From: Bacteroidota bacterium
GTDB taxonomy: Bacteria > Bacteroidota > Bacteroidia > UBA8524
Direction of reading: 5' to 3'
Assembly (NCBI GenBank): GCA_016124735.1
Contig: WGMZ01000033.1
Coordinates: 1 to 64,000 of the forward strand
DNA length: 64,000 nt
A program made the translations under genes and the position numbers. Position 1 is the first letter of the stretch, and the number at the start of each line of letters is the position of its first letter. Below the pieces are notes generated by a model, which worked only from the letters and a program-made list of their open reading frames with translations, was not told where the DNA came from and did not search any database. Of this stretch, positions 2,085-58,267 are shown one piece after another.

Positions 2085-3857
2085 ATGAAAATTGAAATCC
2101 ATCTCAAAGAGCAATTGCAACTTGCTTTCCGTGAACTATATCAGGAAGAAATAGAATCTCCGAAACTGGATAAAACCCGTCCGGAATTTGAAGGCGACTA
2201 TACCCTGGTGGTCTTTCCTTACCTGCGTCAATCCAAAACTGGTCCCGAGCAAACAGCCCAAAACCTGGGAAACTGGATACTAAACCATTCCGACTGGGTT
2301 TCTGATTTCAATGTAATCAAAGGCTTTCTCAATCTGGTGATCGCCGATAGCTATTGGACAGATTTCGCCAACGAATACCTGACAGACGCGTCTCAGATAA
2401 CACATACCGCAGACGGAAAAGATACGCGTATCATGGTGGAATATTCTTCGCCTAACACGAACAAGCCGCTTCATCTTGGACATATTCGGAATAACTTATT
2501 GGGATATTCTGTCTCCAAAATTTTGGAGCATAACGGATACGAAGTAATCAAAGCCAACCTGATCAACGATCGGGGAATCCATATCTGCAAGAGCATGCTT
2601 GCCTGGATGAAATTCGGCGCGGGCGAAACCCCTGAGAGTTCCGGTCTCAAAGGTGATCATCTGGTAGGTAAATACTATGTTGCCTTCGATAAAGCCTATA
2701 AGCAGGAAATCGATGATTTAGTCGCTTCCGGAAAGAATAAGGAAGAGGCAGAAAAACAAGCCCCACTCTTGTTGGAAGCCCAGGAAATGCTCCGTAAATG
2801 GGAAGCTAAAGATCCGGAAACCATTCGCGTTTGGGAGATGATGAATGGCTGGGTTTACGCCGGTTTCGAGCAAACATACCGGCGCATGGGTGTTTCTTTC
2901 GATCAGTTCTATTATGAATCCAATACCTATCTGCTGGGAAAAGACATCGTCAACGAGGGCCTGGAAAAAGGGATACTCTATCAAAAAGAAGATGGATCGG
3001 TATGGATTGACCTGACCTCCGAAAAGCTGGACCAAAAACTCCTGCTACGTTCCGATGGAACATCCGTGTATATGACTCAGGATCTGGGGACCGCCGATTT
3101 GAAGTTTCAGGAATACCAAATGCCACGAAGCATTTATGTGGTAGGAAATGAACAGGATTACCATTTCAAGGTGCTTTTTTCTATTCTGAATAAGCTGGAA
3201 AGACCCTATGCCGAAGGACTTTATCATTTGAGTTATGGAATGGTAGACTTGCCCAGCGGCAAGATGAAATCCCGAGAAGGCACCGTGGTAGATGCAGATG
3301 ATTTGATGGATGAAATGCATCAAACAGCCGATACTATTACGCGTGAACTGGGCAAGATTGAAGGCCTGAGTGAGGAAGAACTCTACTCATTATTTGAAAA
3401 GATTGGTATGGGTGCACTCAAGTATTTCCTTCTCAAAGTGGATCCGGGCAAAAGAATTCTCTTCGACCCGAAAGAATCCATCGACTTTCAGGGAAATACC
3501 GGTCCGTTTTTACAGTACACTTTTGCCCGTATCAATTCCCTGCAAAGCAATGCAGGAGATTGGTCATTTGGCTCATACACCGGAGCCTTAGAAGCACAGG
3601 AAAAAGATTTGATTCGCTACCTGCATGATTTACCCGGAACCATTCGTGCGGCAGGAAAAAATTACAGTCCTGCATTGATTGCCAACTATGTTTACGACCT
3701 GGTAAAAAGCTACAACCGTTTCTATCATGATCTTCCTGTGTTGAAGGAAGAAAATGCGGAAAAACGCAACTTGCGATTGATGCTGAGCAAAGCCACTGCC
3801 GAAGCCATTTCCGCCTGTTTCGCCATGTTGGGAATTCCCGAGGTAGAGAAAATGTAA
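2085..3857 (+). CDS. argS: Arginyl-tRNA synthetase
   Basis: A 590-residue class I synthetase that charges tRNA-Arg with arginine using ATP. The N-terminal Arg-tRNA additional domain spans about residues 1-85. The HIGH-type motif HLGH is at 130-133, inside SPNTNKPLHLGH. The KMSKS-type motif appears as KMKS at 393-396. The C-terminal DALR anticodon-binding domain is alpha-helical and ends in MLGIPEVEKM. Length is normal for the family. The ATG start lies just after GAGCGAAA. No convincing terminator is seen before the next gene. Confidence 0.97.
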   Translation: MKIEIHLKEQLQLAFRELYQEEIESPKLDKTRPEFEGDYTLVVFPYLRQSKTGPEQTAQNLGNWILNHSDWVSDFNVIKGFLNLVIADSYWTDFANEYLTDASQITHTADGKDTRIMVEYSSPNTNKPLHLGHIRNNLLGYSVSKILEHNGYEVIKANLINDRGIHICKSMLAWMKFGAGETPESSGLKGDHLVGKYYVAFDKAYKQEIDDLVASGKNKEEAEKQAPLLLEAQEMLRKWEAKDPETIRVWEMMNGWVYAGFEQTYRRMGVSFDQFYYESNTYLLGKDIVNEGLEKGILYQKEDGSVWIDLTSEKLDQKLLLRSDGTSVYMTQDLGTADLKFQEYQMPRSIYVVGNEQDYHFKVLFSILNKLERPYAEGLYHLSYGMVDLPSGKMKSREGTVVDADDLMDEMHQTADTITRELGKIEGLSEEELYSLFEKIGMGALKYFLLKVDPGKRILFDPKESIDFQGNTGPFLQYTFARINSLQSNAGDWSFGSYTGALEAQEKDLIRYLHDLPGTIRAAGKNYSPALIANYVYDLVKSYNRFYHDLPVLKEENAEKRNLRLMLSKATAEAISACFAMLGIPEVEKM

Positions 3858-3971
3858 AGATGGGCAAGTAACTATTGCTTTTCCAATTGCGTATGAATTG
3901 GGTACTCACCCCTATAACACATGCGTAGATTTTCGTCTAAATTTATTCTTCATCTTGCAGCATTTTAGTGG

Positions 3972-4817
3972 ATGACTTTATCTTTTCAACCATTGAAACC
4001 TGTGAAACACTTACGATACCTCTTCTGGATAATTGCCTGTATTATTCTTTTTGGGAATTCTTCCTGTCAGCAAAGATATCGCCATGTAAAAAAAGTGCAT
4101 ATCGGACAGCAAATGGCCGATCGCAAGGCGAATCAATTGAATAAAACGGATGAACAAGAGCCAAATCACTCCGTGGCTTTCACAGATGAATCTCTAACGG
4201 ATCTTGAGTCCACATCCCTGACAATTGATACAATTAACATTGGTATTCAGACAAGCGCAAAGAACATAAACACAAAATCCTCTCCAATAAAAATTGAACC
4301 GGAACCTTTCGTCTCTTTCCAGGATTCCAGTAAAAAAAGTGAAACGCCTGCCCAGGGAAAGCACCCGGGTTTTTGGCAAAACGACAATGTCTACACGGTT
4401 GCACTTTTCATTCTTATATTACTGGGAATTGGGTTAGTCTTGAATGCTGTAATTGGCACCATTCTGATTTTATATATCGTACCCTCTTACTCCTATTCGG
4501 TAATGCCAGTTATTGGTTACTTGTTATTGGCTGTTCTTGTAAAAATCCCAATCAAGCATTTCATTGGGTATTTTATCGGTAAAAAAAGACTCAAGAAAGA
4601 CTTCCCCCGGAAAAATAATTTTGATCTTACTTTTTTCATCGCATCCATAATAGCTGCTCTTTTGGGAATTTTTGGTTTTGTTCTACCTCAGGTGTTTGCT
4701 TACCCATTCGCCGTTCCCGCCATAATGTTTCTTTTGGCTCTAGTATTTATTGCCGCAGTTGTCTTCTGCATACTCTATGTGATCAAGTGGAGAAAAATGA
4801 AGCTTAAAAAATCTTGA
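3972..4817 (+). CDS. Membrane protein with lipoprotein-like N-terminus (unknown function)
   Basis: A 281-residue protein with no recognised family. The N-terminus (residues 1-34) has a basic stretch, a hydrophobic run and a cysteine in GNSSCQQ, which could be a lipoprotein cleavage site or a simple signal anchor. A polar, Ser/Thr/Lys-rich linker of about 100 residues follows. The C-terminal half holds about four hydrophobic segments and ends in [15 protein letters not shown] broken paralogue of this C-terminal half lies just downstream (4995-5201), so the gene was probably once duplicated around a sirtuin gene. Function is unknown. Confidence 0.6.
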
Positions 4818-4827
4818 AACGTTTATC

Positions 4828-4992
4828 ATGCGAAAAAAACTTGTTGGTTTAAGCGGTGCCGGAATGAGTGCGGAAAGCGGACTAAAAACCTTTCGCGATG
4901 CAGATGAATTATGGGAAGGCCACGATGTATATGAGGTGGCCAGTCCGCATCTGATGCTGGATAAGGAGATTAGCCACTTCATTCCAGGCGTT
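4828..4992 (+). pseudogene. Sirtuin (Sir2/CobB) 5' remnant
   Basis: The ATG at 4828 opens a sirtuin N-terminus with the NAD-binding signature [15 protein letters not shown], then [13 protein letters not shown]. This is characteristic of class III NAD-dependent deacylases (CobB). Homology fades after about 55 residues, near DKEISHF. The frame then runs on without meaning to a stop at 5100. The rest of the Rossmann fold, the catalytic HG motif and the zinc cysteines are all missing. A functional deacylase is impossible. The remnant begins 10 bases after the preceding membrane gene. Confidence 0.75.
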
Positions 4993-4994
4993 AA

Positions 4995-5201
4995 GCCAGG
5001 ATCAGTAAGGAACTGCACAAAAAACCAACCCTTGATTATGTCCTCTGTTTTTCAGCCGCGTTCTTTTTGTTATCTGTTTTCGTGTATACCGAAATATTGA
5101 CTTCGATATATATGTTATCAGACGTTCCATTTTTCTCAGCAATTCCACTCCTGATCCTGTTAATCTTTTGCCTTCAGTATGCGATTAATTGGAGAAAATA
5201 G
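4995..5201 (+). pseudogene. 3' remnant of a paralogue of the 3972-4817 membrane protein
   Basis: After the TAA at 4992-4994, another frame reads [17 protein letters not shown], then two hydrophobic segments, then FCLQYAINWRK and a TAG at 5199-5201. This matches the C-terminal part of the upstream gene: [17 protein letters not shown] corresponds to [17 protein letters not shown], and [11 protein letters not shown] to FCLQYAINWRK. DNA similarity is also visible near the ends (TATGnGATnAAnTGGAGAAAA). Only a late ATG (5112) is available, so it is best read as a broken paralogue. The piece adjoins the sirtuin remnant. Confidence 0.6.
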
Positions 5202-5213
5202 ATCTTGCACTAA

Positions 5214-8419
<3,206 letters not shown>

Positions 8420-8451
8420 AATCAAGAAAGTCCTTCGTACTTCCTGCTTCC

Positions 8452-8910
8452 CTACCGATTCTTATAATTCTTCTCATACAAAGCAATCCAGTCTTGCGCT
8501 GTCATCTTTCTGCTTAGTTCTGCGATGAGCTCATAGGGGATTTGGTCCATCTTCTTCAAACGCACGCAGCTCTTGCCCATATCCAGCTTGCCCTTTACCC
8601 GCTTTCCATATTCTTCCACAAACCAATTCAGGAGTTGTGGATCGGCATACATGCCCATGTGGTAAAAGCCGATAAAGTTCTTTTGTGAGGCAATGCTTAT
8701 AAAAGGCAAAGGCAATTTGGGGTCGCAGTGGTAGCCGGGAGGATAAACAGAATGCGGCACCACATAGCCAATCATGCCATAGCTCATGGTTTCTTCGAAG
8801 CCGTCAGGTAAATTTTCGAGAATAGCGGCTCTCAGTTTTTCCATCGGCTCTTTGCGGTCCTCTGGAATTTGAGCCATGTATTGGTCGGGAGTTTGTGCTT
8901 GGTATTGCAT
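8452..8910 (-). CDS. DUF1801 domain protein
   Basis: A 152-residue protein of the DUF1801 family. Typical features are the opening YMAQIPEDRKEPMEKLR, then GFEETMSYGMIGYVVP, then KNFIGFYHMGMYAD. Relatives include the Bacillus frataxin-like iron-binding proteins and many uncharacterised cytoplasmic proteins, so function here is unknown. It is convergent with ligA with only 32 bases between stops, and no terminator is seen there. Confidence 0.8.
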   Translation of the reverse strand: MQYQAQTPDQYMAQIPEDRKEPMEKLRAAILENLPDGFEETMSYGMIGYVVPHSVYPPGYHCDPKLPLPFISIASQKNFIGFYHMGMYADPQLLNWFVEEYGKRVKGKLDMGKSCVRLKKMDQIPYELIAELSRKMTAQDWIALYEKNYKNR

Positions 8911-9156
8911 GGGATCGGTTTAACAGGAACAAAATAAAACAACCACCACCTTTATTCCTCCATGGAATCTTCATCTATGTATCCATCCGTGGTATTATAT
9001 CCATGCAGTGTCTTCCCTTCTTTTGTTTCAATTTGAATCTCGTAAAGCAGATGAATTGTCTCCATATTTTTCCATCCCAATATCTCCACCTCACAAAGTC
9101 ACAATATCTCAACGTCTTTGTGCTCCTGTACTCTGTACTTGTCTACTCTATTTTAT

Positions 9157-9164
9157 ACCTTTGT
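9157..9164 (+). promoter_or_regulatory. Possible Bacteroidota -7 box (TACCTTTG)
   Basis: TACCTTTG fits the TAnnTTTG -7 consensus exactly and lies just before the first plausible start codons of the DUF6913 gene. A TTG lies only about 14 bases upstream, less than the usual 19-20, so the -33 half is weak. If real, transcription would start close to the GTG/TTG codons. Confidence 0.35.
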
Positions 9165-9699
9165 GCTCTTGAAGAAATTCTTTGCCAAACGAGCCATCCG
9201 GCAGGCTGCCAAAGCGAGCAGCAAGCGTGAACGTAAAATTCGTTCAATCGGACCCGGCGTTAAAGTGGGAATTCTCTTCAATGCCGAGGACGCCTCAAGG
9301 CGACAATTAATTGAAAAATTCCGGGAAGAGCTTATGAAAGAAGGAGCTCTGGTCACTGCGCTGGGGTATTTTAGCAGCAAAGAGTTTCCCGAAAAACTGG
9401 TGTTCAAACCGGGTTTCGATTATTTGAAAAAAGCGGATTTCGATTGGAAAGGCTTGAGCAATGGGTCGGTAACGGATAAACTGAATGCTAGTGCATTGGA
9501 TATCCTGATTGTGATCGATTCGCAAGAAGACCTGCCCCTGCTTTATCTGGCTGCCAAAAGCAATGCGGGTTACCGTATTGGAGCTTACAACGAATCCAAT
9601 ACCGCTTGCTTTGATTTTATGTTCGACCTGGGCACAAACAACACGAATGAAAACCTGGTAAAGCAATGTTTGCATTACCTGAAACACTTGAAGCAATGA
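9163..9699 (+). CDS. DUF6913 family protein
   Basis: A short alpha/beta protein of about 178 residues, similar to the DUF6913 proteins of Bacteroidota. The basic N-terminus (LLKKFFAKRAIRQAAKASSKRERK) is followed by strands and helices with conserved DILIVIDSQEDLPLLYLAAKS and GYRIGAYNE. The start is uncertain: GTG 9163, TTG 9169 or an upstream TTG at 9118. I prefer 9163, because the residues before it do not look like this family. The stop overlaps the dapA start (ATGA), suggesting coupled translation. Function is unknown. Confidence 0.65.
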   Translation: MLLKKFFAKRAIRQAAKASSKRERKIRSIGPGVKVGILFNAEDASRRQLIEKFREELMKEGALVTALGYFSSKEFPEKLVFKPGFDYLKKADFDWKGLSNGSVTDKLNASALDILIVIDSQEDLPLLYLAAKSNAGYRIGAYNESNTACFDFMFDLGTNNTNENLVKQCLHYLKHLKQ

Positions 9700-10571
9700 T
9701 AAATTTGTATGGAACCGGAGTAGCCATGGTTACTCCTTTTGAGGCCGATGGAAGCGTAGATTATGCCGCGTTGAGAATGTTAACCCGTCATCTGGTAGAC
9801 AACAAGATTGAGTACCTGGTGGTGATGGGAACCACCGGCGAAAGTGCTACGCTGAGCAGCGACGAGAAGCGCAAAATCTTTGATACGGTTCTGGATGAAA
9901 ACAAGGGTGCAATTCCAGTGATAGCCGGAATGGGTGGTAACAATACCGCTGAGCTTCTAAACGGATTCAAACAATTCAATTTTGATGGTATTTCTGCTAT
10001 ACTTTCAGTAAGTCCATACTACAACAAACCGAATCAGGCCGGCATCAGTGCACATTATACCGCCCTGGCAGATGCTTCTCCTCTTCCGGTTATTCTGTAC
10101 AATGTGCCGGGAAGAACTGGTTCCAACATGACCGCCGAAACAACTTTGGCCCTTGCCGAACATAAAAATATCGTGGCCATGAAAGAAGCCAGCGGCAATA
10201 TGGAACAATGCATGGAAATTCTGCGCCATCGCCCGAATGATTTCTATGTTTTGTCGGGAGATGATGCCCTTACCTTGCCATTGCTTAGCATGGGGATGGA
10301 TGGTGTAATATCGGTTATAGCCAATGCTTACCCACGCAATTTCTCAGAATTGGTGCGCATGGCCTTGGGCGGTAACTTCAAGGCAGCCCGCGAACTCCAT
10401 TATGGTTTGCTTGGAATGATGAACGAAATTTTTGCCGATGGAAGTCCGGGAGGCATCAAAGAAATCCTGAATCATCTTGGTATCTGCGGCACTCATGTTC
10501 GTCTGCCTCTGATGAATGTGAACCCAAGCGTTCGTGCTAAACTGATTGCACTGGCGAAGAGTTATAGTTAG
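9696..10571 (+). CDS. dapA: 4-hydroxy-tetrahydrodipicolinate synthase
   Basis: A 291-residue class I aldolase-type enzyme. It condenses pyruvate with aspartate semialdehyde at the first committed step of lysine and diaminopimelate synthesis. Visible motifs are GTTGES (45-50), YYNKP, Y135-NVPGRT, the Schiff-base lysine K163 in MKEASGN, and SGDD. I chose the ATG at 9696, where MINLYGTGVAMVTPF begins, over an upstream ATG at 9666 inside the previous gene. It overlaps the DUF6913 stop by ATGA. Confidence 0.96.
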   Translation: MINLYGTGVAMVTPFEADGSVDYAALRMLTRHLVDNKIEYLVVMGTTGESATLSSDEKRKIFDTVLDENKGAIPVIAGMGGNNTAELLNGFKQFNFDGISAILSVSPYYNKPNQAGISAHYTALADASPLPVILYNVPGRTGSNMTAETTLALAEHKNIVAMKEASGNMEQCMEILRHRPNDFYVLSGDDALTLPLLSMGMDGVISVIANAYPRNFSELVRMALGGNFKAARELHYGLLGMMNEIFADGSPGGIKEILNHLGICGTHVRLPLMNVNPSVRAKLIALAKSYS

Positions 10572-10622
10572 GGAGGCTGGCAAAAGAGTTCAGATTTCAG
10601 TGTTAAGATTCTGAATAGAAAC

Positions 10623-10650
10623 AAAAAGCCGTTCCGGACCTCCGGGCCGG
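10623..10650 (-). terminator. Possible terminator after the recN-rhomboid genes
   Basis: On the minus strand a GC-rich imperfect hairpin (GCC-CGG-AGGT-CCG, then a small bulge, then GGC) is followed by TTTTTG. It lies about 35 bases past the rhomboid stop. The stem is interrupted, so support is moderate. Confidence 0.4.
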
Positions 10651-10684
10651 GAGACAAAAAATAGTTGACCGGACTAAGAGCCCA

Positions 10685-11746
10685 TTACGGCCTCAGAAAG
10701 ACCTCTTTCTCCAAATACTCGATGCCTGCTTTCTTTTCCTGGTAAAGGGGATACAGAAAAGTTCCGTCGTGACGAAGAAAATCGATCACAAGTTGGTATC
10801 GTTTCTTATTCAATCGGCAATACAATTCTATCTGCTGCATTTTAACCAGCAAAGGTTCGGGCATATCCGGGTTTTGGTATTTAACGGCTGTATCAATCGC
10901 CGACTGCCAATGTTGAATCCCGTCCCTAAAAGCATTGCTATCTTCTCCATGAAGCCAGGCCAAATCGGCCTCTGCTTTTTCCAGGCGCAAAACGTTTCGC
11001 ACCTTTTGAAAATCGGCGAGTGGATTGCTCAAACCTTTTCCAAGCACCACTACAGACATAAAAGCCAGGAAGGATAAAAAGCCCAAAGCCCCGCGAATTG
11101 GCAAGGCAATGCCAGGATTCGATTTGATAAAGCCGAATGCCACTCCTGTCAAAATGCCCGCCAGCATGCCACCGATATGGGCTGCATGATCAATTTGTGT
11201 ATTGAAGAATCCATACACTGTTTGAAGAATAAACAGGACAAAAAGCAGGAATACATGGGGTACCAAATCCTTGAAATAAGAAGACTGTGTAAACAATAAG
11301 ATGAGGCATGCACCGAAAAGAGCATATACCATGGCAGAAGCCCCAACACTCAGCAGATAGGGATACCAGAAAAAGGAGACGCTATTGCCACAAAGCCCTC
11401 CGAAAAGCATCAGGAGACCAATATTTTTCCAGCCCAGCAATGGCTCCAAAACACGCCCCAATATCCAAAGAACAAATACATTCACTACCAGATGGAATAT
11501 TCCGCGATGGATAAACAGTGCCGTAAACAATCTCCATAGTTGTCCGTCGATCACCGCACTTCTTTGATTGGCACCCCAATCAAACAACGCGATTGGATCC
11601 GGACTGAGCGCATTGACTCCATCAAAAGTCATCCAGAAAAAAATCAGGATTTCTACGATAGCCACCAAAGGTACCAGCCAAAAATCTGTTCCCGGAATAA
11701 GGTCCAGATGCAATTTCTTTTGTTCTGGTCTGAGCTGCTTTTCCAT
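10685..11746 (-). CDS. Rhomboid family intramembrane serine protease
   Basis: A 353-residue polytopic protease that cuts transmembrane helices. About six membrane segments occupy the first 240 residues. The WR motif is in QLWRLFTALFIH. The catalytic serine is S137, in GASA instead of the usual GASG. The catalytic histidine is H190 in DHAAHIGGMLAG. The last 110 residues form a soluble helical tail. Its start overlaps the recN stop by one base (TAATG), so it is probably the last gene of the bamD-recN transcript. The serine-histidine pair is intact, so activity is likely. Confidence 0.9.
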   Translation of the reverse strand: MEKQLRPEQKKLHLDLIPGTDFWLVPLVAIVEILIFFWMTFDGVNALSPDPIALFDWGANQRSAVIDGQLWRLFTALFIHRGIFHLVVNVFVLWILGRVLEPLLGWKNIGLLMLFGGLCGNSVSFFWYPYLLSVGASAMVYALFGACLILLFTQSSYFKDLVPHVFLLFVLFILQTVYGFFNTQIDHAAHIGGMLAGILTGVAFGFIKSNPGIALPIRGALGFLSFLAFMSVVVLGKGLSNPLADFQKVRNVLRLEKAEADLAWLHGEDSNAFRDGIQHWQSAIDTAVKYQNPDMPEPLLVKMQQIELYCRLNKKRYQLVIDFLRHDGTFLYPLYQEKKAGIEYLEKEVFLRP

Positions 11747-13401
11747 TAAGATGCCATCAATTCGCGTGCATTCGCAAGTGCAGATTCCGACATCCTGTCC
11801 CCACTCAACATCCGGGCTACCTCTCTCACCCTTTCTTCTTCATTCAGTTCTTTCATATAGGTTTGACTCGTGCCATCCTGAATTTCTTTATACACTTGAA
11901 AATGTACATCTCCCAGTGCGGCTATTTGCGGCAAATGCGTGATGCTTATAACCTGGAGTCCCTTGGCCATTTCTTTCATTCTCTTGCCCACCTTTGCAGC
12001 TACCTCTCCGGATATTCCGGTATCAATCTCATCAAAAATTAAGGTAGGCAAAGACTTCGACACGGCCAGTATAGATTTAAAACAAAGCATGAGCCGGGAA
12101 AGTTCACCACCGGAAGCCACTTTATTTACCGCCTGCATAGGCATGCCGGGATTGGATGAGAAATAAATTCGTATTTCATCGGGTCCTTCCTCTCCGGGAT
12201 GTTCAAGTGCTTCCATCTGAATGTCTATCTGGGCATGAGGCATTCCAACTTCGGCCAGTAGCTCCTCCAATTTACCCTGAAGAACAGGAATGGCTTGCTC
12301 GCGGGTATTCCTTAATTCCTTCGAGGCAACCTCCAAAGCATTCCGCGCCAAACTAACACTGGCCATCAGTTTTTCCTTTTCCTCTTCTAAATTTTCAACC
12401 CGGGCAATTTTATCTTCCAGCTCAAACTGCTTCTGCAACAAGCCTTCAGAGCCAGAACAGCCATGCTTCTTTTGAAGGGAATACACCATGCTAATGCGTT
12501 GTTCTACCTGTTCCAACCTCGCATCATCCGCCTGGGTATTGTCTGCTATTTTTTCAAGTTCAGCCGCAATATCATCCAATTCAATCTGCAATGAATTCAA
12601 TCGCGAGGCAAGAGATGAGAACCGGTCTTCATGTGCCGCCTGTTGCTTTAGCAAATGCGAGACCGCTACAAGTATAGAATGCGCAGAACCTTCCTGATTG
12701 CGTATGCCTTCGGCCCCCTCAAAAGCAGCTTTTGCAATTTCAGCCGCATAGGCCAGGCGTCGCTGTTCCGCTTCCAGTTCCACTTCCTCTCCAGCTTTTA
12801 AATTAGCCTCTTGCAATTCTTTAAGTTGAAAAGAATGAAAATCATATTCTGCCTTCCAGCTTGCCTCCTGTTCCGTTAGCTGTATTAACTCTTTTTGAAG
12901 TCGTCGGTTCTCAGAAAGTGCCGTTCGGTACGCATGCAGGCTGACCTGGTTCCCGGCAAAGCTGTCCAGCAACTGAACTTGATAATGTTTGTCTTTGAGC
13001 GACAGGGTTTCATGCTGGGTATGAATATCAATTAGCGACTCACCAAGCTCGCGTAGCTGCTGTAATGTAACCGGTGTATCGTTGATAAATGCACGGGATT
13101 TTCCCTGAACGGATATTTCCCGGCGGATGACGCAGACTGGCTCATAATCCAATTCATTATTCTCGAAAAAGCTTTCCAGATGATATTCGGAAACGAGAAA
13201 CTCCGCTTCAACCACACACTTGCTCTCGTGCCCTTCTACCACATTACTTTCCGCACGCTCTCCAAGTACGAGTCCAAGTGCACCAAGCAAAATAGACTTC
13301 CCCGCTCCGGTTTCTCCGGTAATGATAAGAAGTCCCTTATCCATTTCCAGATTGAGGTCACGGATTAAGGCATAGTTTTTTACTCGGAGTGATTGCAGCA
13401 C
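11746..13401 (-). CDS. recN: DNA repair protein RecN
   Basis: A 551-residue SMC-like ATPase for double-strand break repair. Walker A is GETGAGKS at 29-36. A long coiled coil occupies the middle. The ABC signature lies in SGGELSRLMLCFKSIL and Walker B in PTLIFDEIDTGISGEVA, followed by a conserved ITHLPQIAALGD. Length is normal. The start is GTG at 13401, giving MLQSLRVKNYALI, which fits the family. It is followed without a gap by the rhomboid gene. Confidence 0.97.
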   Translation of the reverse strand: MLQSLRVKNYALIRDLNLEMDKGLLIITGETGAGKSILLGALGLVLGERAESNVVEGHESKCVVEAEFLVSEYHLESFFENNELDYEPVCVIRREISVQGKSRAFINDTPVTLQQLRELGESLIDIHTQHETLSLKDKHYQVQLLDSFAGNQVSLHAYRTALSENRRLQKELIQLTEQEASWKAEYDFHSFQLKELQEANLKAGEEVELEAEQRRLAYAAEIAKAAFEGAEGIRNQEGSAHSILVAVSHLLKQQAAHEDRFSSLASRLNSLQIELDDIAAELEKIADNTQADDARLEQVEQRISMVYSLQKKHGCSGSEGLLQKQFELEDKIARVENLEEEKEKLMASVSLARNALEVASKELRNTREQAIPVLQGKLEELLAEVGMPHAQIDIQMEALEHPGEEGPDEIRIYFSSNPGMPMQAVNKVASGGELSRLMLCFKSILAVSKSLPTLIFDEIDTGISGEVAAKVGKRMKEMAKGLQVISITHLPQIAALGDVHFQVYKEIQDGTSQTYMKELNEEERVREVARMLSGDRMSESALANARELMAS

Positions 13402-49823: not shown

Positions 49824-49858
49824 AATAGTTGAACTTTGGAATGCAATATACTTGCTCT

Positions 49859-50581
49859 ATGAAAAAAATATTACTTGCGCTCATCATCCTTGGCTTTCAA
49901 ATGAGCCTTGCTGCTCAATCTTGCACCCCAGACAGTACTATTACTGCGCCGGGCACCTATCCCAAACATCTTCCCGACGGGATAGCGGGAACCCATTACC
50001 AGCAAACGGTGCAATTCCGGATTGCATCAGACACACAGGTAACATTTAGTGGATCCACGGTTACAGCCCACATCGATTCCATCAAGGTTCTGGATGTATT
50101 CGGACTTCCAGGTGGGATTTCCTATTCGTGCACACCGGCTTCCTGTGCCTTGCCAGGTGGAAAAACTTCCTGTGGACTTATATATGGCGATATTGATGCG
50201 AATGCTTCAGGTACCTATCCTTTTACCATCCCAATCAGAATCTATGTGCATATTGGGGGAACCTTTCCCTATCAGCAACCCGACACCTTATACAATATCT
50301 CGATGAATGTGAATGCTGCTGCCGGAATCGATGAGATGGTACAGCATGAATTACTGGTATATCCGAATCCAGCCACCAGTGACCTGAATGTAGCACTAAC
50401 ATTCCACGCCGGTCAGGCAGAGATTGAGGTCTTTGACAGACAAGGAAAGCGGCTAAACCTGGAAAGCCACTATGAAAACAATATTATACATCTGAACACC
50501 TCTGATCTCCCGGCAGGGATTTATATGGGACAGGTGCAACATGGATCCGAAACGTACCGATTCCGCTTTGTCAGGAACTGA
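49859..50581 (+). CDS. Small secreted protein with T9SS sorting domain
   Basis: A 240-residue protein. The signal peptide is MKKILLALIILGFQMSLAAQ. The mature part has six cysteines (including SCTPASCALPGGKTSC) and no recognised enzyme domain. The end is a type A T9SS sorting domain (LLVYPNPATSDLNV ... DLPAGIYMGQVQHG). The ATG at 49859 is chosen because the signal peptide starts there. Its 3' end overlaps the convergent aroB 3' end by 11 bases. It interrupts an otherwise minus-strand run of shikimate genes. Confidence 0.8.
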   Translation: MKKILLALIILGFQMSLAAQSCTPDSTITAPGTYPKHLPDGIAGTHYQQTVQFRIASDTQVTFSGSTVTAHIDSIKVLDVFGLPGGISYSCTPASCALPGGKTSCGLIYGDIDANASGTYPFTIPIRIYVHIGGTFPYQQPDTLYNISMNVNAAAGIDEMVQHELLVYPNPATSDLNVALTFHAGQAEIEVFDRQGKRLNLESHYENNIIHLNTSDLPAGIYMGQVQHGSETYRFRFVRN

Positions 50582-53402: not shown

Positions 53403-53432
53403 TTGCATAGGAACTCTTGCCGAATATATTTG
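53403..53432 (+). promoter_or_regulatory. Promoter of the DUF3857 gene pair
   Basis: TTG (53403-53405) and TATATTTG (53425-53432) are separated by 19 bases, matching the Bacteroidota -33/-7 pattern. The start codon follows 16 bases after the -7 box, giving a very short leader. Confidence 0.75.
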
Positions 53433-53448
53433 TAGGACAAGTATTCCT

Positions 53449-55443
53449 ATGAATCCCTATTTATACCTTCGAACGCTTCCCAATGTAAAGCGTCTGATAT
53501 TGAAATTTTATTCAACAGTTTTATTATTTTCCACTATTCAGGTGGCCCAGGCCCAGCCTCAATATGATTTTCAGTCTTTAAAAGCTGCACATGAAGGCGA
53601 AAACGCCGTGATTGTTAAAAATGATCGCCTGATGCATATCGGGGTTGCGAAAGGAGAATTATCTATTCAGAGCACTCAGACTCTTGGATTCACGATCCTT
53701 GAAGAAAATGCCAGAATCTCCAGCGAACACGAAGTGAGTTATTCCCCGGGGTTTTATACCATTTCCGATATTTCTGCTGCCTCTTATGTATTGCAGAGCA
53801 ATGGAAAGTATAAAAAGATCAAGGTGAAAAATTTTGAAGACTATTCGGATTACTCGGGCTATGTCTTCTACGATGATACCCGGCATAAAAAATTTTATTT
53901 TCCCAGCCTGAAGGCCGGTACCTATGCGGAGGAAACACATACCTACGATTATGCGCGCCCTCAATTTTTAGGCGGTCATTATTTTCAGCCTGGGTCCTGG
54001 GCTGTTCTAGATAGTAAGTTAACTGTAGAAGTTGAAGATGGCGTCGAAATAGCCTGGAGTCAATTTGGCGATAAAAGTTTGGTCAATTTTACCCAAACCA
54101 CGGAAAAAGGGAAAACCATTTATCAATGGGAACTTAAAGATGCGCCGGCCAGAAAATACTTTAATGATGCGCCAAACTCGCGCTACTATATTCCTCATAT
54201 CTATATTCGGATTAAGTCGTATAGCGTCAAAGGTCAATCTATTCCGGTATTGGGCGATTTAAACGATCTCTATCGTTTCAACTACAGTTTTATTAAAGAC
54301 GTAAACGACCATGCACCTTCGGCAGACATTCAGAATGTGGTAGACAGCTTGAAAAGAGTGAACAGTAATACCGACTCCATGATCCAAAACATCTTTTATT
54401 GGGTCCAAAGCAATATTAAATACATTGCGATTGAAGATGGATTGGGCGGATATGTTCCTCGGCAGGCCAATGATATCTTCACCAACAGATATGGCGACTG
54501 TAAGGATAAAACGAGTATCATTACATGTATGCTGAATGCTGCAAATATTCCTTCGCATATGGTATGGATAGGTTCACGTGACATTCCTTATCGCTACGAA
54601 GATTTGCCAACCCCATCGGTCGACAACCACATGATAGCGGCAGTTTTCCGCCATGGGCGTTGGATATTTCTGGATGGAACAGCCGGCTATTATCAATATG
54701 GCTACCCAACTAATTTTATTCAGGGCAAAGAAGGACTCGTAGCCATTGATCCGGACTCGTTTTCCCTGGTGCAGGTTCCGGTTATCCCGGCATCAGAAAA
54801 CCTTTATTCCGACACCATGAATTTGTGGATTGAAAATGGAATGCTGAAGGCTAAGGGACATGTGCAAGTCAACAAAATGCAAAAATTCAGAATCACTGAA
54901 TCTTTGATGAACATGAAGGATGAAGACCGCACCAAAAGGCTGGAAGACCTGAACCGGAAAGGAAACAATAAATGTAAGATTGATAAGATGGATGTACACA
55001 ATCTGGAAGAACGAAATGAGCCTTTGAAAATTGATTACACCATGCATATTCCAGACTATGTGAAAGATATCGACAATAACCTGTACATCAATATGTGGTT
55101 ATCAAAATCCTACCTCGATGAAAAGATAGACACCAGCCAACGAGGAAATATTCCAAAAGAGATAAACTATACCTACACCGATCTGGAATATTATGTATTG
55201 GACATCCCCGAAGGCTACAGGTTAAAACCCTCCAGCTTACCTGAAAATGTAGAGTATCATTCGGGCAAGGTGAATGTGTCCTATTCTTACAAACACGAAA
55301 ACAATAAAGTGTATTTTCAGTATCAAATTGCCATTGACACGCTGCTTATCACACCCGATCAATTTAAAGATTATAACGAGGCCATCGACATTTTGTTAAA
55401 GGCATACAACCAAGTCATTGTATTAGAAAAAGTAAAACCATAA
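53449..55443 (+). CDS. DUF3857/transglutaminase-like secreted protein
   Basis: A 664-residue protein. A signal-like N-terminus ends at VAQAQPQ. It has an N-terminal DUF3857 beta domain (about 50-270) and a transglutaminase-like domain with a full Cys-His-Asp triad: C351 in RYGDCKDKTS, H394 in VDNHMIAA, D409 in WIFLDGTAG. A C-terminal DUF3858-like beta region follows. It is probably exported to the periplasm, where related folds act as cysteine peptidases or transglutaminases; the real substrate is unknown. The next gene starts 3 bases downstream. Confidence 0.85.
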   Translation: MNPYLYLRTLPNVKRLILKFYSTVLLFSTIQVAQAQPQYDFQSLKAAHEGENAVIVKNDRLMHIGVAKGELSIQSTQTLGFTILEENARISSEHEVSYSPGFYTISDISAASYVLQSNGKYKKIKVKNFEDYSDYSGYVFYDDTRHKKFYFPSLKAGTYAEETHTYDYARPQFLGGHYFQPGSWAVLDSKLTVEVEDGVEIAWSQFGDKSLVNFTQTTEKGKTIYQWELKDAPARKYFNDAPNSRYYIPHIYIRIKSYSVKGQSIPVLGDLNDLYRFNYSFIKDVNDHAPSADIQNVVDSLKRVNSNTDSMIQNIFYWVQSNIKYIAIEDGLGGYVPRQANDIFTNRYGDCKDKTSIITCMLNAANIPSHMVWIGSRDIPYRYEDLPTPSVDNHMIAAVFRHGRWIFLDGTAGYYQYGYPTNFIQGKEGLVAIDPDSFSLVQVPVIPASENLYSDTMNLWIENGMLKAKGHVQVNKMQKFRITESLMNMKDEDRTKRLEDLNRKGNNKCKIDKMDVHNLEERNEPLKIDYTMHIPDYVKDIDNNLYINMWLSKSYLDEKIDTSQRGNIPKEINYTYTDLEYYVLDIPEGYRLKPSSLPENVEYHSGKVNVSYSYKHENNKVYFQYQIAIDTLLITPDQFKDYNEAIDILLKAYNQVIVLEKVKP

Positions 55444-55446
55444 CCC

Positions 55447-57414
55447 ATGAATAGAATTTACCTGATCCTGCTCTTCCTATTGGGCGCAACGACAATGAGT
55501 CAGGCGCAGCTTGACGACTTTTCCGCAAGAGATTACACTGTTCTCTCAGCTGTTCCGGAAGTCAAACTCGATTCAACTGAAGCCAAAAAAGACCTCATCT
55601 TTATTTTCGACCGCATCTATGTGGAATACGTCATTCGTCCGGAGAAAGACGAATTTTTCCGCTGGCAGGTTAACCATAGTCTGAAATATGTAAATGACGA
55701 CAATGCAATCGAGGACAACAATAAACTTTATATCCCATTGTATGCAGTCAAATCGATTGAGAATCTGATTGTACGTGTTTACAAAGATGGAAACCTCATC
55801 TCTGAATCTTACGAAGATGAGCTAAAGACCGTGGAGCTGGAGAAAACAGAAATGAAGTTACTGGCATTGAAAGGGGTTGAAAAGGGCTGTTTGATCGAGA
55901 CACTGATGCTGAAAAAATTGCCTTTTGAATTCAACGATTTCGAATACCTGCAAGATGAAGCACCCCGGAGAAATGCCGAATTCCGCTTATATGTTCCGAA
56001 AGATTTTCGCTTTAAAGTACATTCCTACAATGGATTAGAGAAATACAAATCAGAGATAGGAAGCTACCGGCGCATATACTATATCAATCAAAAAGATGTT
56101 CCCGGCCTGCAAGATGAAAAATATACTTTTCAGACTGCCAATCGGATGCGGGTTAATTATACCCTCCATGAACGTGTAGACGACGGGCATATATTCTCAA
56201 AATACGAAGACATGGGCAATACCTTCTATGATGGAATTATGAAGGATTATGCCAAAGGAAGGAAGGTCTTCAAGAAAATTTCCAAAGGAGCTAAATTTGA
56301 AGAAAACGACAAGACCATTGAAAAGGTATACAAATTAGATCATTGGATTAAGTCCAATGTCCTCAGTTTTCCCGGAATTAAATCGCAGGCAAAGCTCAAA
56401 TCTGTTTTGAAGCAGCATTTTGGTTCTCAACGCGATGTGCTTAAACTGTACATGTATAGCTTCTTCCAAATGGGCATCGACTATGAAATCGTGCTGACTT
56501 GCGACAAGACCAAGCGTCGTTTTGACCCTGAATTCGATTCCTGGGATTATATCACCGATGTGTTATTTTATTTTCCGAAAGAAGAGATATTTCTTGATCC
56601 GCTGAATATGTTCTCCCGTCTGGGAAGAATCAATTCTGACTTTTTGGGCGAAGGAGCCTTGTTCTGCACTCCTCTTGAGTACAGTGGTAAAAATGAAGTG
56701 AATACGAAAATCAGGGAAATCCATAAAAATCCGGTTGAAGAAAGCACCGATATTCATACGGTAACGGTCAAGCTTACTCCAGATATGTTGTCATGCGAGA
56801 TCGATTACCAACGAAGCATGAAAGGTTATGCCGACATGACATTGCGCTCGGCATACTTCACTTCCGATAAAGAAGACCGCAAGGATTTTATTGAAGAGTT
56901 TGTTAAAGGTGAGGCCACTGAATCGGAAGTAGAAATAACCGATGTGAAAAATTTTAATTTGAGCGACCAAAAGGAATACAATAATCCATTCGAAGTAGAT
57001 GCCAAACTTAAAACTTCCTATTATGTAGAAAGTGCCGGAGATAAAATACTGCTTAAAGTTGGAGAATTAATTGGTGCCCAATCTGAAATGTACAGCGAGG
57101 AACCTCGCCAGCAGCCAATCAATTTGTCTTATGCTCACAAGTATGTTCGCAACATTACAATTGAAATCCCGGAAGGATATCAGGCAAAAGGCCTGGAGAA
57201 ACTGAATATCAATCATCAATATAAGAATGCCGCTGGTGAATATTCCATGGGTTTCGTATCCAGTTATAAGTATGAAGGAAACAAAATCATCATCACCTGC
57301 GAAGAATACTACAGCGATTTAAACTACCCGATCATGCAGTATGAAGAGTTTGCCAAGGTAATTAATGCCGCTGCCGACTTCAATAAAATTTCCATTTTGA
57401 TTGAGAAGAAGTAA
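55447..57414 (+). CDS. DUF3857 protein with degenerate transglutaminase domain
   Basis: A 655-residue paralogue of the preceding protein, with signal peptide MNRIYLILLFLLGATTMSQAQ. The domain order is the same, but the catalytic stretch GDCKD is replaced by GSQRD, with Q328 at the cysteine position. No clear histidine equivalent is visible, and only an FLDP aspartate remains. It therefore cannot be a cysteine enzyme of the usual type. It starts 3 bases after its partner and ends before a terminator, so the two form an operon. A binding or regulatory role beside the active partner is inferred. Confidence 0.8.
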   Translation: MNRIYLILLFLLGATTMSQAQLDDFSARDYTVLSAVPEVKLDSTEAKKDLIFIFDRIYVEYVIRPEKDEFFRWQVNHSLKYVNDDNAIEDNNKLYIPLYAVKSIENLIVRVYKDGNLISESYEDELKTVELEKTEMKLLALKGVEKGCLIETLMLKKLPFEFNDFEYLQDEAPRRNAEFRLYVPKDFRFKVHSYNGLEKYKSEIGSYRRIYYINQKDVPGLQDEKYTFQTANRMRVNYTLHERVDDGHIFSKYEDMGNTFYDGIMKDYAKGRKVFKKISKGAKFEENDKTIEKVYKLDHWIKSNVLSFPGIKSQAKLKSVLKQHFGSQRDVLKLYMYSFFQMGIDYEIVLTCDKTKRRFDPEFDSWDYITDVLFYFPKEEIFLDPLNMFSRLGRINSDFLGEGALFCTPLEYSGKNEVNTKIREIHKNPVEESTDIHTVTVKLTPDMLSCEIDYQRSMKGYADMTLRSAYFTSDKEDRKDFIEEFVKGEATESEVEITDVKNFNLSDQKEYNNPFEVDAKLKTSYYVESAGDKILLKVGELIGAQSEMYSEEPRQQPINLSYAHKYVRNITIEIPEGYQAKGLEKLNINHQYKNAAGEYSMGFVSSYKYEGNKIIITCEEYYSDLNYPIMQYEEFAKVINAAADFNKISILIEKK

Positions 57415-57467
57415 TTCAAGCAATTACGCCCTGAATCGATGATGCGATTCAAAGGACATATCATAAC

Positions 57468-57502
57468 AAAAGCCACTTGGTTTAGCCGGAGTGGCTTTTT
57501 TT
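57468..57502 (+). terminator. Terminator after the DUF3857 pair (probably bidirectional)
   Basis: AAAAGCCACT (57468-57477) pairs with AGTGGCTTTT (57490-57499), and the T run continues to 57502. The minus strand also has four T residues after the stem, so it may end the convergent methyltransferase transcript as well. A smaller hairpin GAATCG-ATGATG-CGATTC lies at 57433-57450. Confidence 0.85.
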
Positions 57503-57511
57503 ATCCCCTTC

Positions 57512-58267
57512 TCAAATTCGACCTACCCTCAATATGACCGGAAATCGGAAGCTCTGATATTCCTGTTCACCCCATATCATCTGAAATGATCTTGCCAACT
57601 CTGGCAATGGGTCTGTTCCTGTTGCAATCTGGAATTTCTTTAAGGCAGACCAGCTGCTAAAAAACCCGATCAACTCCTCCAGATTCCAGCTCCGTTCAAT
57701 GGAAAAAGCAGGTGTCTCCATTTGCTCAAATGGGAATGGAATGGTTCTGTAGCCGGCGTCAATATATTTTCTTTCGGGGTCCCAATACGGACCCAATAAT
57801 CGGGAATAAAATACTTCTATCACTTCACCTAAATGCCCATCCAGATATGCATTGCCTGAATTAGCTTCTATCAATCCATACCCCATCAATGCCAATAATG
57901 CCATTGGTTTGGCCGTTCGTTTTACTTCATGATAAAATCCATCAAAATCAAACCAATGCACTGCCTGGGCGACTGTGATCAAATCAAATGAGATTGCCGG
58001 AAAATCAACATTTTCCGCGGGTTGTTTGGAATAGGAGATATTCTTCAATTCAACCGCATGGTCCAGCTGGTTTTGACTAATATCTGTGGCTTTTACCTCT
58101 CTGAATTTTTCTGCCAGTCTTTTGGCTACCTGTCCGCTTCCCGTTCCGCAATCCCAGGCCAGTTCAAATTCGTTGACCTGTTGAAATAACCAGGAATATA
58201 ATTCATCCGGATAATCAGGACGGTACAAGGAATATTCCTTTGCGGAAGCGGAGAACAGGTCTTTCAT
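57512..58267 (-). CDS. Class I SAM-dependent methyltransferase
   Basis: A 251-residue protein with a Rossmann-like methyltransferase fold. Motif I is WDCGTGSGQVAKRLAEKF, followed by KATDISQNQLDHA and FDLITVAQAVHWFDFDGFYHEVKR. It resembles the trans-aconitate/ubiquinone-type methyltransferase_11 group. The substrate cannot be inferred. Its start overlaps the DinB gene stop (ATGA). Confidence 0.88.
   Translation of the reverse strand: MKDLFSASAKEYSLYRPDYPDELYSWLFQQVNEFELAWDCGTGSGQVAKRLAEKFREVKATDISQNQLDHAVELKNISYSKQPAENVDFPAISFDLITVAQAVHWFDFDGFYHEVKRTAKPMALLALMGYGLIEANSGNAYLDGHLGEVIEVFYSRLLGPYWDPERKYIDAGYRTIPFPFEQMETPAFSIERSWNLEELIGFFSSWSALKKFQIATGTDPLPELARSFQMIWGEQEYQSFRFPVILRVGRI

Follow-up and report, generated by a model that had tools for sequence, protein, structure and literature searches.

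The stretch of DNA analysed here, called the window, comprises 64,000 nucleotides (nt) from a Bacteroidota bacterium (GenBank assembly GCA_016124735.1, contig WGMZ01000033.1, positions 1 to 64,000 of the forward strand). Two intact open reading frames (ORFs), genes A and B, lie on its + strand with 3 nt between them (Table 1). Their products are homologous, and the first retains a complete transglutaminase-like catalytic triad while the second has lost it. As judged from the sequences of the two proteins and their relatives, A and B probably constitute an enzyme-pseudoenzyme pair of the cell envelope that functions as an obligate complex.

Table 1. Features of the A-B locus, with positions in the window
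Feature	Position	Strand	Basis
Gene A: predicted exported protein with DUF3857, transglutaminase-like core and DUF3858-like domain, catalytic residues intact, 664 amino acids (aa)	53449..55443	+	ORF, Pfam, alignment
Gene B: predicted exported homologue of A with like architecture, catalytic Cys and His gone, 655 aa	55447..57414	+	ORF, profile and structure comparison
Cys351 codon of A, GDCKD motif	54499..54501	+	family alignment; invariant in 70-row A alignment
His394 codon of A, DNHMI motif	54628..54630	+	family alignment; invariant in 70-row A alignment
Asp409 codon of A	54673..54675	+	family alignment; invariant in 70-row A alignment
Gln328 codon of B, column of catalytic Cys	56428..56430	+	family alignment
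Asp371 codon of B, column of catalytic His	56557..56559	+	family alignment
C-terminal signature of B, KVGxLIGPQxEMYQExxR (window: KVGELIGAQSEMYSEEPR), among the best-conserved stretches of the dead family	57055..57108	+	
C-terminal signature of B, NAAADFNK	57364..57387	+	conservation in dead-family alignments
Promoter-like element TTG-N19-TAnnTTTG	53403..53432	+	motif match, no proof of function alone
Terminator-like hairpin and T-run 3' of B	about 57468..57502	+	folding energy vs shuffles

The two proteins of the locus

Protein A matches the Pfam profiles of DUF3857 (PF12969; 60.8 bits, E = 2.2e-16, gathering cut-off 24.6) and Transglut_core (34.4 bits, E = 2.9e-8, cut-off 23), and its match to DUF3858, at 26.0 bits, lies just under the cut-off of 27. 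An alignment of 128 family ORFs identifies Cys351-His394-Asp409 as the catalytic triad, and the position of the triad within the Transglut_core domain places A, on sequence grounds, in the transglutaminase-like superfamily as a predicted enzyme. The DUF3857 match of B reaches 18.8 bits, below the cut-off of 24.6, its DUF3858 match is weak and Pfam gives no Transglut_core match. Neither protein matched anything useful in NCBIfam, and a first collection scan using B alone found no relatives.

One set of relatives, the named sample, consists of the best 80 of 578 A relatives, chosen on A alone. It covers Hymenobacter, Niastella, Flavobacterium, Aquimarina, Mucilaginibacter, Marinifilum, Carboxylicivirga, Fluviicola and others, and includes many metagenome-assembled genomes (MAGs). 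The search patterns include GDCK, so that the Cys of A is selected for, while its His and Asp and all features of B are unselected. The 70-row alignments of A and of B leave out 11 of the 80 loci, which are truncated or frameshifted or lack B. The three triad residues are invariant across the 70 A rows, 69 of which come from the search that favours the Cys.

In the 128-ORF alignment the triad columns of B hold Gln328, Asp371 and Asp384, the Asp of the third position being kept. The sequence-only reading had described an intact triad in the first protein and, in the second, Gln in place of Cys with no visible His, and the alignment agrees on both. The triad columns can be read in 73 of the 76 B proteins encoded downstream of A in the named sample, the other three (L126, L157, L189) being cut or broken. 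The Cys column contains Cys in none of the 73, the His column contains His in five (L117, L120, L127, L143, L179) and the Asp column contains Asp in eight (L144, L148, L152, L155, L156, L167, L175, L181). As His and Asp are sometimes retained, the Cys is the sole triad position that is always lost among these proteins. The presence of Gln328 and Asp371, together with the absence of Cys from all readable relatives, is the reason for classifying B as a non-catalytic homologue rather than an enzyme.

Direct comparison of A and B by BLASTP aligns the C-terminal region only (E = 7e-5). Profiles built from 70 sequences of each align over 624 columns with a probability of 99.9 (E = 3e-36). The predicted models have mean predicted local distance difference test (pLDDT) scores of 93.4 for A and 92.9 for B and share the same best PDB match, 3kd4, with Foldseek E-values of 7.7e-30 for A and 4.3e-23 for B (residues 46-654); the B model aligns to 3kd4 with a Z-score of 18.9 and a root-mean-square deviation of 4.2 over 474 residues. 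The earlier description of the two as large paralogues is borne out by these comparisons, and A and B appear to be full-length homologues with a single predicted fold and domain order. The N-terminal domain also resembles the N-domains of M1 aminopeptidases and Ost1 (Z about 10-12 over 150-170 residues, families as listed by the aligner); this likeness was put down to a shared beta fold only and no function was drawn from it.

Simple pattern tests find a hydrophobic, signal-peptide-like start in both window proteins, in 68 of the 70 A rows and in all 70 B rows, and a lipobox-like motif in none of the A rows and four of the B rows. With regions set by the analyst from the Pfam matches, conservation of A peaks in the transglutaminase core (2.88 bits per residue), and that of B in the C-terminal region 521-650 (2.39 bits, vs 2.06 in its transglutaminase-like core).

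Co-inheritance and age of the pair

A search of 295 genomes of the class found DUF3857 in 122 of them. Two sets of 30 loci were picked by eye among the matches listed, with active sites disregarded: tandem loci (L051-L080), in which two DUF3857 matches lie about 2 kb apart, and single-match loci (L081-L110). Some of them apparently share contigs with named loci, and the samples thus overlap. At each of the 30 tandem loci a single member has a triad, either Cys-His-Asp or Cys-His-Glu, next to one or two dead members, and 26 of the 30 single-match loci likewise combine active and dead members. The remaining four are either active only (L091, L104), in genomes (G241 and G287, respectively) that carry a full B on a separate contig, or dead only (L089, L105). 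No A adjacent to the B of L089 was seen in its genome (G200), which has a second DUF3857 match at an unlisted position.

In the named sample, the triad is present in A at all 80 loci and B follows directly downstream on the same strand at 76. The gap between the genes at these 76 loci has a median of 5.5 nt and is at most 30 nt in 61; the genes overlap in 23, a count that may be too high since ORF starts were placed mechanically at the first possible start codon. The short gaps and overlaps suggest coupled synthesis. Three of the four loci without an adjacent B belong to genomes that carry a full B on another contig. At one locus, L129, the contig stops 10 nt past A, so that the B found elsewhere in the assembly may in reality lie next to A. 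Two records titled as MAGs of Bifidobacterium breve and Klebsiella pneumoniae (L111 and L133) carry a Bacteroidota-type pair and are most likely mislabelled or contaminated bins.

Whole genomes were sampled from the class (99 genomes) and from the phylum (198 genomes), all at least 90% complete. Bit-score cut-offs for type I proteins (A at least 545, B at least 325) were placed at gaps in the score listings after these had been seen. With these cut-offs the A-bearing and B-bearing genomes are the same ones, 15 of 99 in the class and 10 of 198 in the phylum, the union being 22 different genomes (Fisher tests of co-occurrence, p < 1e-16 with kinship ignored). The 15 pair-bearing genomes of the class sample span 11 families, and an adjacent pair is also present in a genome of a different class of the phylum (G397). 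Three genomes (G047, G241, G287) keep both A and B though the two genes lie on different contigs. The next A scores below the cut-off, 500 and 431 bits, come from G016 and G092 and fall within subfamily C6 on the tree. Members of C6, which is also the second subfamily represented in the genome of the window, show the same pattern, in that A proteins of 343-500 bits and dead partners of 59-70 bits occur in the same five of 99 genomes, a post hoc observation on weaker scores. The sequence-only reading had proposed conservation of the pair in Bacteroidota as a check and had named beforehand a lack of co-inheritance as evidence against its interpretation; what was found is near-absolute co-inheritance, also across separate contigs.

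The genome from which the window comes contains a second set (L047, G000:C6:88000-102000, 2623-11976), a tandem duplicate in the order active-dead-active-dead. In its second active copy an in-frame TAG splits off the last ~98 residues.

The dead proteins form an old lineage. A FastTree tree of 127 rows, from which L049 was left out, separates 61 of 65 dead proteins from all other rows at a branch with support 1.0. For 66 chosen rows, an IQ-TREE quick tree computed with the catalytic columns removed divides the active and dead proteins of subfamilies I, C6, II and III into eight groups, each on one side of a branch, with the support of active I only 87. Dead I and dead C6 are joined at 100, and active I and active C6 at 99. 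A further branch, with support 96, divides the 29 dead proteins of these two subfamilies and of II from all active proteins and the four dead proteins of III. The simplest reading of this topology is that the duplication and the loss of catalysis had already happened when I, C6 and II separated, the pairs diversifying jointly from then on. Gene order has changed in subfamily II, where 7 of 11 loci begin with the dead gene and four with the active gene, which indicates that the tie between A and B is more than a frozen gene order; at three loci of this subfamily (L058, L060, L069) one active gene and two dead genes stand in a row. Two of nine sequence pairs are unsaturated enough for estimates of the ratio of nonsynonymous to synonymous substitution rates (dN/dS), dS being infinite or >2 in the other seven; the values for B and A are 0.067 vs 0.055 (L061/L067) and 0.26 vs 0.33 (L117/L120). 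The dead lineage is old, its branching mirrors that of the active lineage, and purifying selection acts on both. Combined with co-inheritance, these properties argue for an obligate partnership and against a decayed copy, and it is very likely that B is an obligate functional partner of A.

The TPR and MORN_2 gene upstream of many pairs

A third gene, T, recurs at these loci. Its product, usually about 1090 aa in length, carries a TPR region at the N-terminus as well as an extended MORN_2 array, as seen in four proteins scanned. T precedes A on the same strand at 48 of the 80 named loci (47 of the 71 with >3 kb of upstream sequence), and at 44 of these 48 its end lies within 30 nt of the start of A or overlaps it. 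Among the 25 largest clusters of flanking genes at the 80 loci it is the only frequent one, the next being found at eight loci. No additional partner recurs beyond two to three loci in each of subfamilies II, III and C6.

Full-length T (at least 700 bits) is found in 13 of the 15 pair-bearing genomes among the 99. The two that lack it are G068 and the genome of the window, G000, where the best match to the T profile has an E-value of 7.4e-21 and one weak MORN_2 match was seen; the place directly upstream of A in the window is taken by a transglycosylase gene instead. As T stands upstream in many loci and its full-length form is missing from these two genomes, T is a frequent yet dispensable associate, and A and B are the core. 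Two genomes of one family, G041 (L224, on contig C34) and G080 (L225, on contig C6), contain full T without A or B of subfamily I; either the pair was lost there or T acts independently. A second link of TPR repeats to an enzyme of the A type is provided by L191, the only one of the long DUF3857 proteins scanned with Pfam, which combines TPR repeats, DUF3857 and Transglut_core in one chain.

Proposed function, alternatives and known counterparts

As in enzyme-pseudoenzyme pairs, A has a homologous partner that lacks the catalytic residues, is encoded by the neighbouring gene and is inherited with it (15/15 and 10/10 genomes). In the model that we infer for the complex, its location past the signal peptide, its chemistry, its substrate and the role of T, A would be exported to the envelope and, through Cys351-His394-Asp409, would act on a protein of the envelope by cleaving or transferring an amide bond. 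B, an ancient paralogue, would have retained the multi-domain fold and given up catalysis. It would most likely bind A, probably as a heterodimer, and its conserved C-terminal region may supply substrate binding, positioning or stability. T would likely serve as scaffold or substrate of the pair in many relatives, the lineage of the window managing without it. The suggestion that a secreted enzyme and its dead twin act as partners is supported by these results. As to the kind of partner, a structural subunit is tentatively favoured over an inhibitor or a scaffold.

The closest parallels come from the M16B family. The mitochondrial processing peptidase has one catalytic subunit, and its homologous non-catalytic subunit is essential; TTHA1264 is monomeric and inactive in solution alone and forms an active heterodimer with TTHA1265, the product of a neighbouring gene (PMC12731061). 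These pairs, together with SPH2681/SPH2682, resemble A and B in being homologous, and in the processing peptidase (alpha/beta) one subunit lacks the site. However, their fold is that of an unrelated zinc metalloprotease, and A and B are known here from sequence and single-chain models. It is fairly likely that A and B form a stable heterodimer.

Several observations weigh against an obligate pair or fail to strengthen it. No B was found in the 2.4 Mb genome, of unknown completeness, that contains L174, the fourth named locus without an adjacent B. G135 has a dead member of subfamily II and no active one was found, no profile for subfamily-II active proteins having been run there. Four long active proteins (L191-L194) stand without an adjacent dead homologue, which indicates that the catalytic core can work alone in other settings. 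Each is a single chain of about 1250-1270 aa with the active core and its Cys motif in the C-terminal half; they resemble A in this catalytic part, and L191 resembles T in its TPR repeats, whereas they differ from the pair in consisting of one chain. No fusion of A with B was seen among the long DUF3857 proteins read, L191-L194 having one active domain and no dead one. An open frame of 1355 aa at L101, considered as a fusion, merely joins upstream sequence at the edge of the locus (cf. L195). On the tree, the dead members of subfamily III group with the active proteins, so that a second loss of catalysis, in this subfamily, is possible. Mirror-tree correlation was set aside as evidence of contact: r is 0.92 over 70 A-B pairs without a species-tree control, but T, A and B, all linked, correlate with one another, and with T as control the partial correlation drops to 0.54 (44 loci), which is not decisive.

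Among the alternatives, B might have an activity or ligand of its own and work in one pathway with A without contact. The dead family has invariant residues of its own, including N92, R110, E151, Q545, E620, Y622 and N640, as such a function would require. However, its alignment contains no conserved Cys column and no evident new triad within one domain, and 61 of 76 gaps of at most 30 nt with 23 overlaps (starts being mechanical) fit poorly with separate action; this possibility is considered unlikely. The lack of a conserved Cys also bears on the second refuting condition of the sequence-only reading, activity of B from another site.

It is also rather unlikely that B is a dedicated inhibitor, a zymogen-like cap or an immunity protein, whose dead core fills the cleft of A until A is needed. 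B retains the complete fold of A, and obligate co-inheritance and close spacing would fit an inhibitor equally well. Against this, B is conserved most strongly at its C-terminus, not round the pseudo-active site, and the columns of Cys, His and Asp are loosely constrained, with 12, 8 and 9 different residues, respectively, in 73 rows. Dead-first order and the loci with two dead genes in subfamily II suit a subunit and an inhibitor equally.

Another proposal, that A acts on a different amide substrate such as peptidoglycan-linked peptides and that the pair is a wall-processing complex, is improbable. Cell-wall isopeptide bonds are substrates of other transglutaminase-like enzymes, and an MtgA-like transglycosylase gene ends 66 nt upstream of A in the window. 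Yet a promoter-like element separates that gene from A, and T is the only frequent neighbour in the flanking clusters, which were compared without gene-by-gene annotation. That B is a decaying duplicate of A, kept through chance linkage, would account for its lost catalytic residues but is scarcely credible given the age of the dead lineage with its own supported groups, its low dN/dS, the identical genome sets and the retention of both genes on different contigs; recent decay was rejected on tree age, dN/dS and genome co-occurrence.

For the enzyme-pseudoenzyme pair a wider history can be outlined only tentatively. The pair may be a hitherto undescribed envelope machine of Bacteroidota, an obligate active-dead heterodimer that originated once, before the subfamilies split, and was kept in no fewer than three of these (I, C6, II and perhaps III), many lineages having added a TPR/MORN_2 protein that the pair would cross-link or process. 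The pair appears to be undescribed in the literature searched: no description of an active-dead pair and no mention of DUF3858 were found in the open-licence papers searched. Among these papers DUF3857 comes up in a single one, in passing, as a neighbour of lolA (PMC6341742).

The structure matched best by both proteins, 3kd4, is that of BDI_1141 from Parabacteroides distasonis, a DUF3857/DUF3858 protein labelled 'putative protease'. Like B it lacks the Cys, with GTPLE aligned to GDCKD of A. Unlike the window proteins, with which it has 11-14% identity, it belongs among the shorter dead proteins of subfamily III, matching that of L054 at E = 4.7e-52. It is likely that 3kd4 is a non-catalytic subunit, and this structure of a dead member has been in the PDB since 2009. 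In the open-licence papers searched, the code 3kd4 appears in a single relevant one, as no more than a profile-search match (PMC4866520).

Other members of the transglutaminase-like cysteine protease superfamily, such as LapG, the vasohibins and the arylamine N-acetyltransferases, share with A the Transglut_core domain and the Cys-His-Asp triad, while A differs in carrying DUF3857 and DUF3858-like domains. We know of no obligate dead twin for any of the three. Enzyme-pseudoenzyme pairs are known in other folds, as in M16B, and A and B would represent a transglutaminase-like version present in 11 families of one class and in another class of the phylum. This would recast two 'domains of unknown function' as a system of two subunits that can be tested experimentally and has a possible third component.

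A shared promoter and a shared terminator had been proposed for the two genes. The terminator-like hairpin 3' of B is stable (-18.2 kcal/mol, z -5.5, with 0 of 200 shuffles equally stable) and is accompanied by a T-run; this putative terminator may be shared with a convergent gene at 57512-58267. The promoter-like element upstream of A at 53403-53432 is suggestive only: its motif, TTG-N19-TAnnTTTG, which we take to be a promoter motif of the Bacteroidota type, has four matches in the window vs 1.07 expected, and 3 of 100 shuffles reach four. A generic scan of the window for promoters, including sigma-70, and terminators was at chance level overall. Further upstream, a 250-aa protein with a Por_Secre_tail sorting domain is encoded at 49829-50581 (+), which suggests a type IX secretion system.

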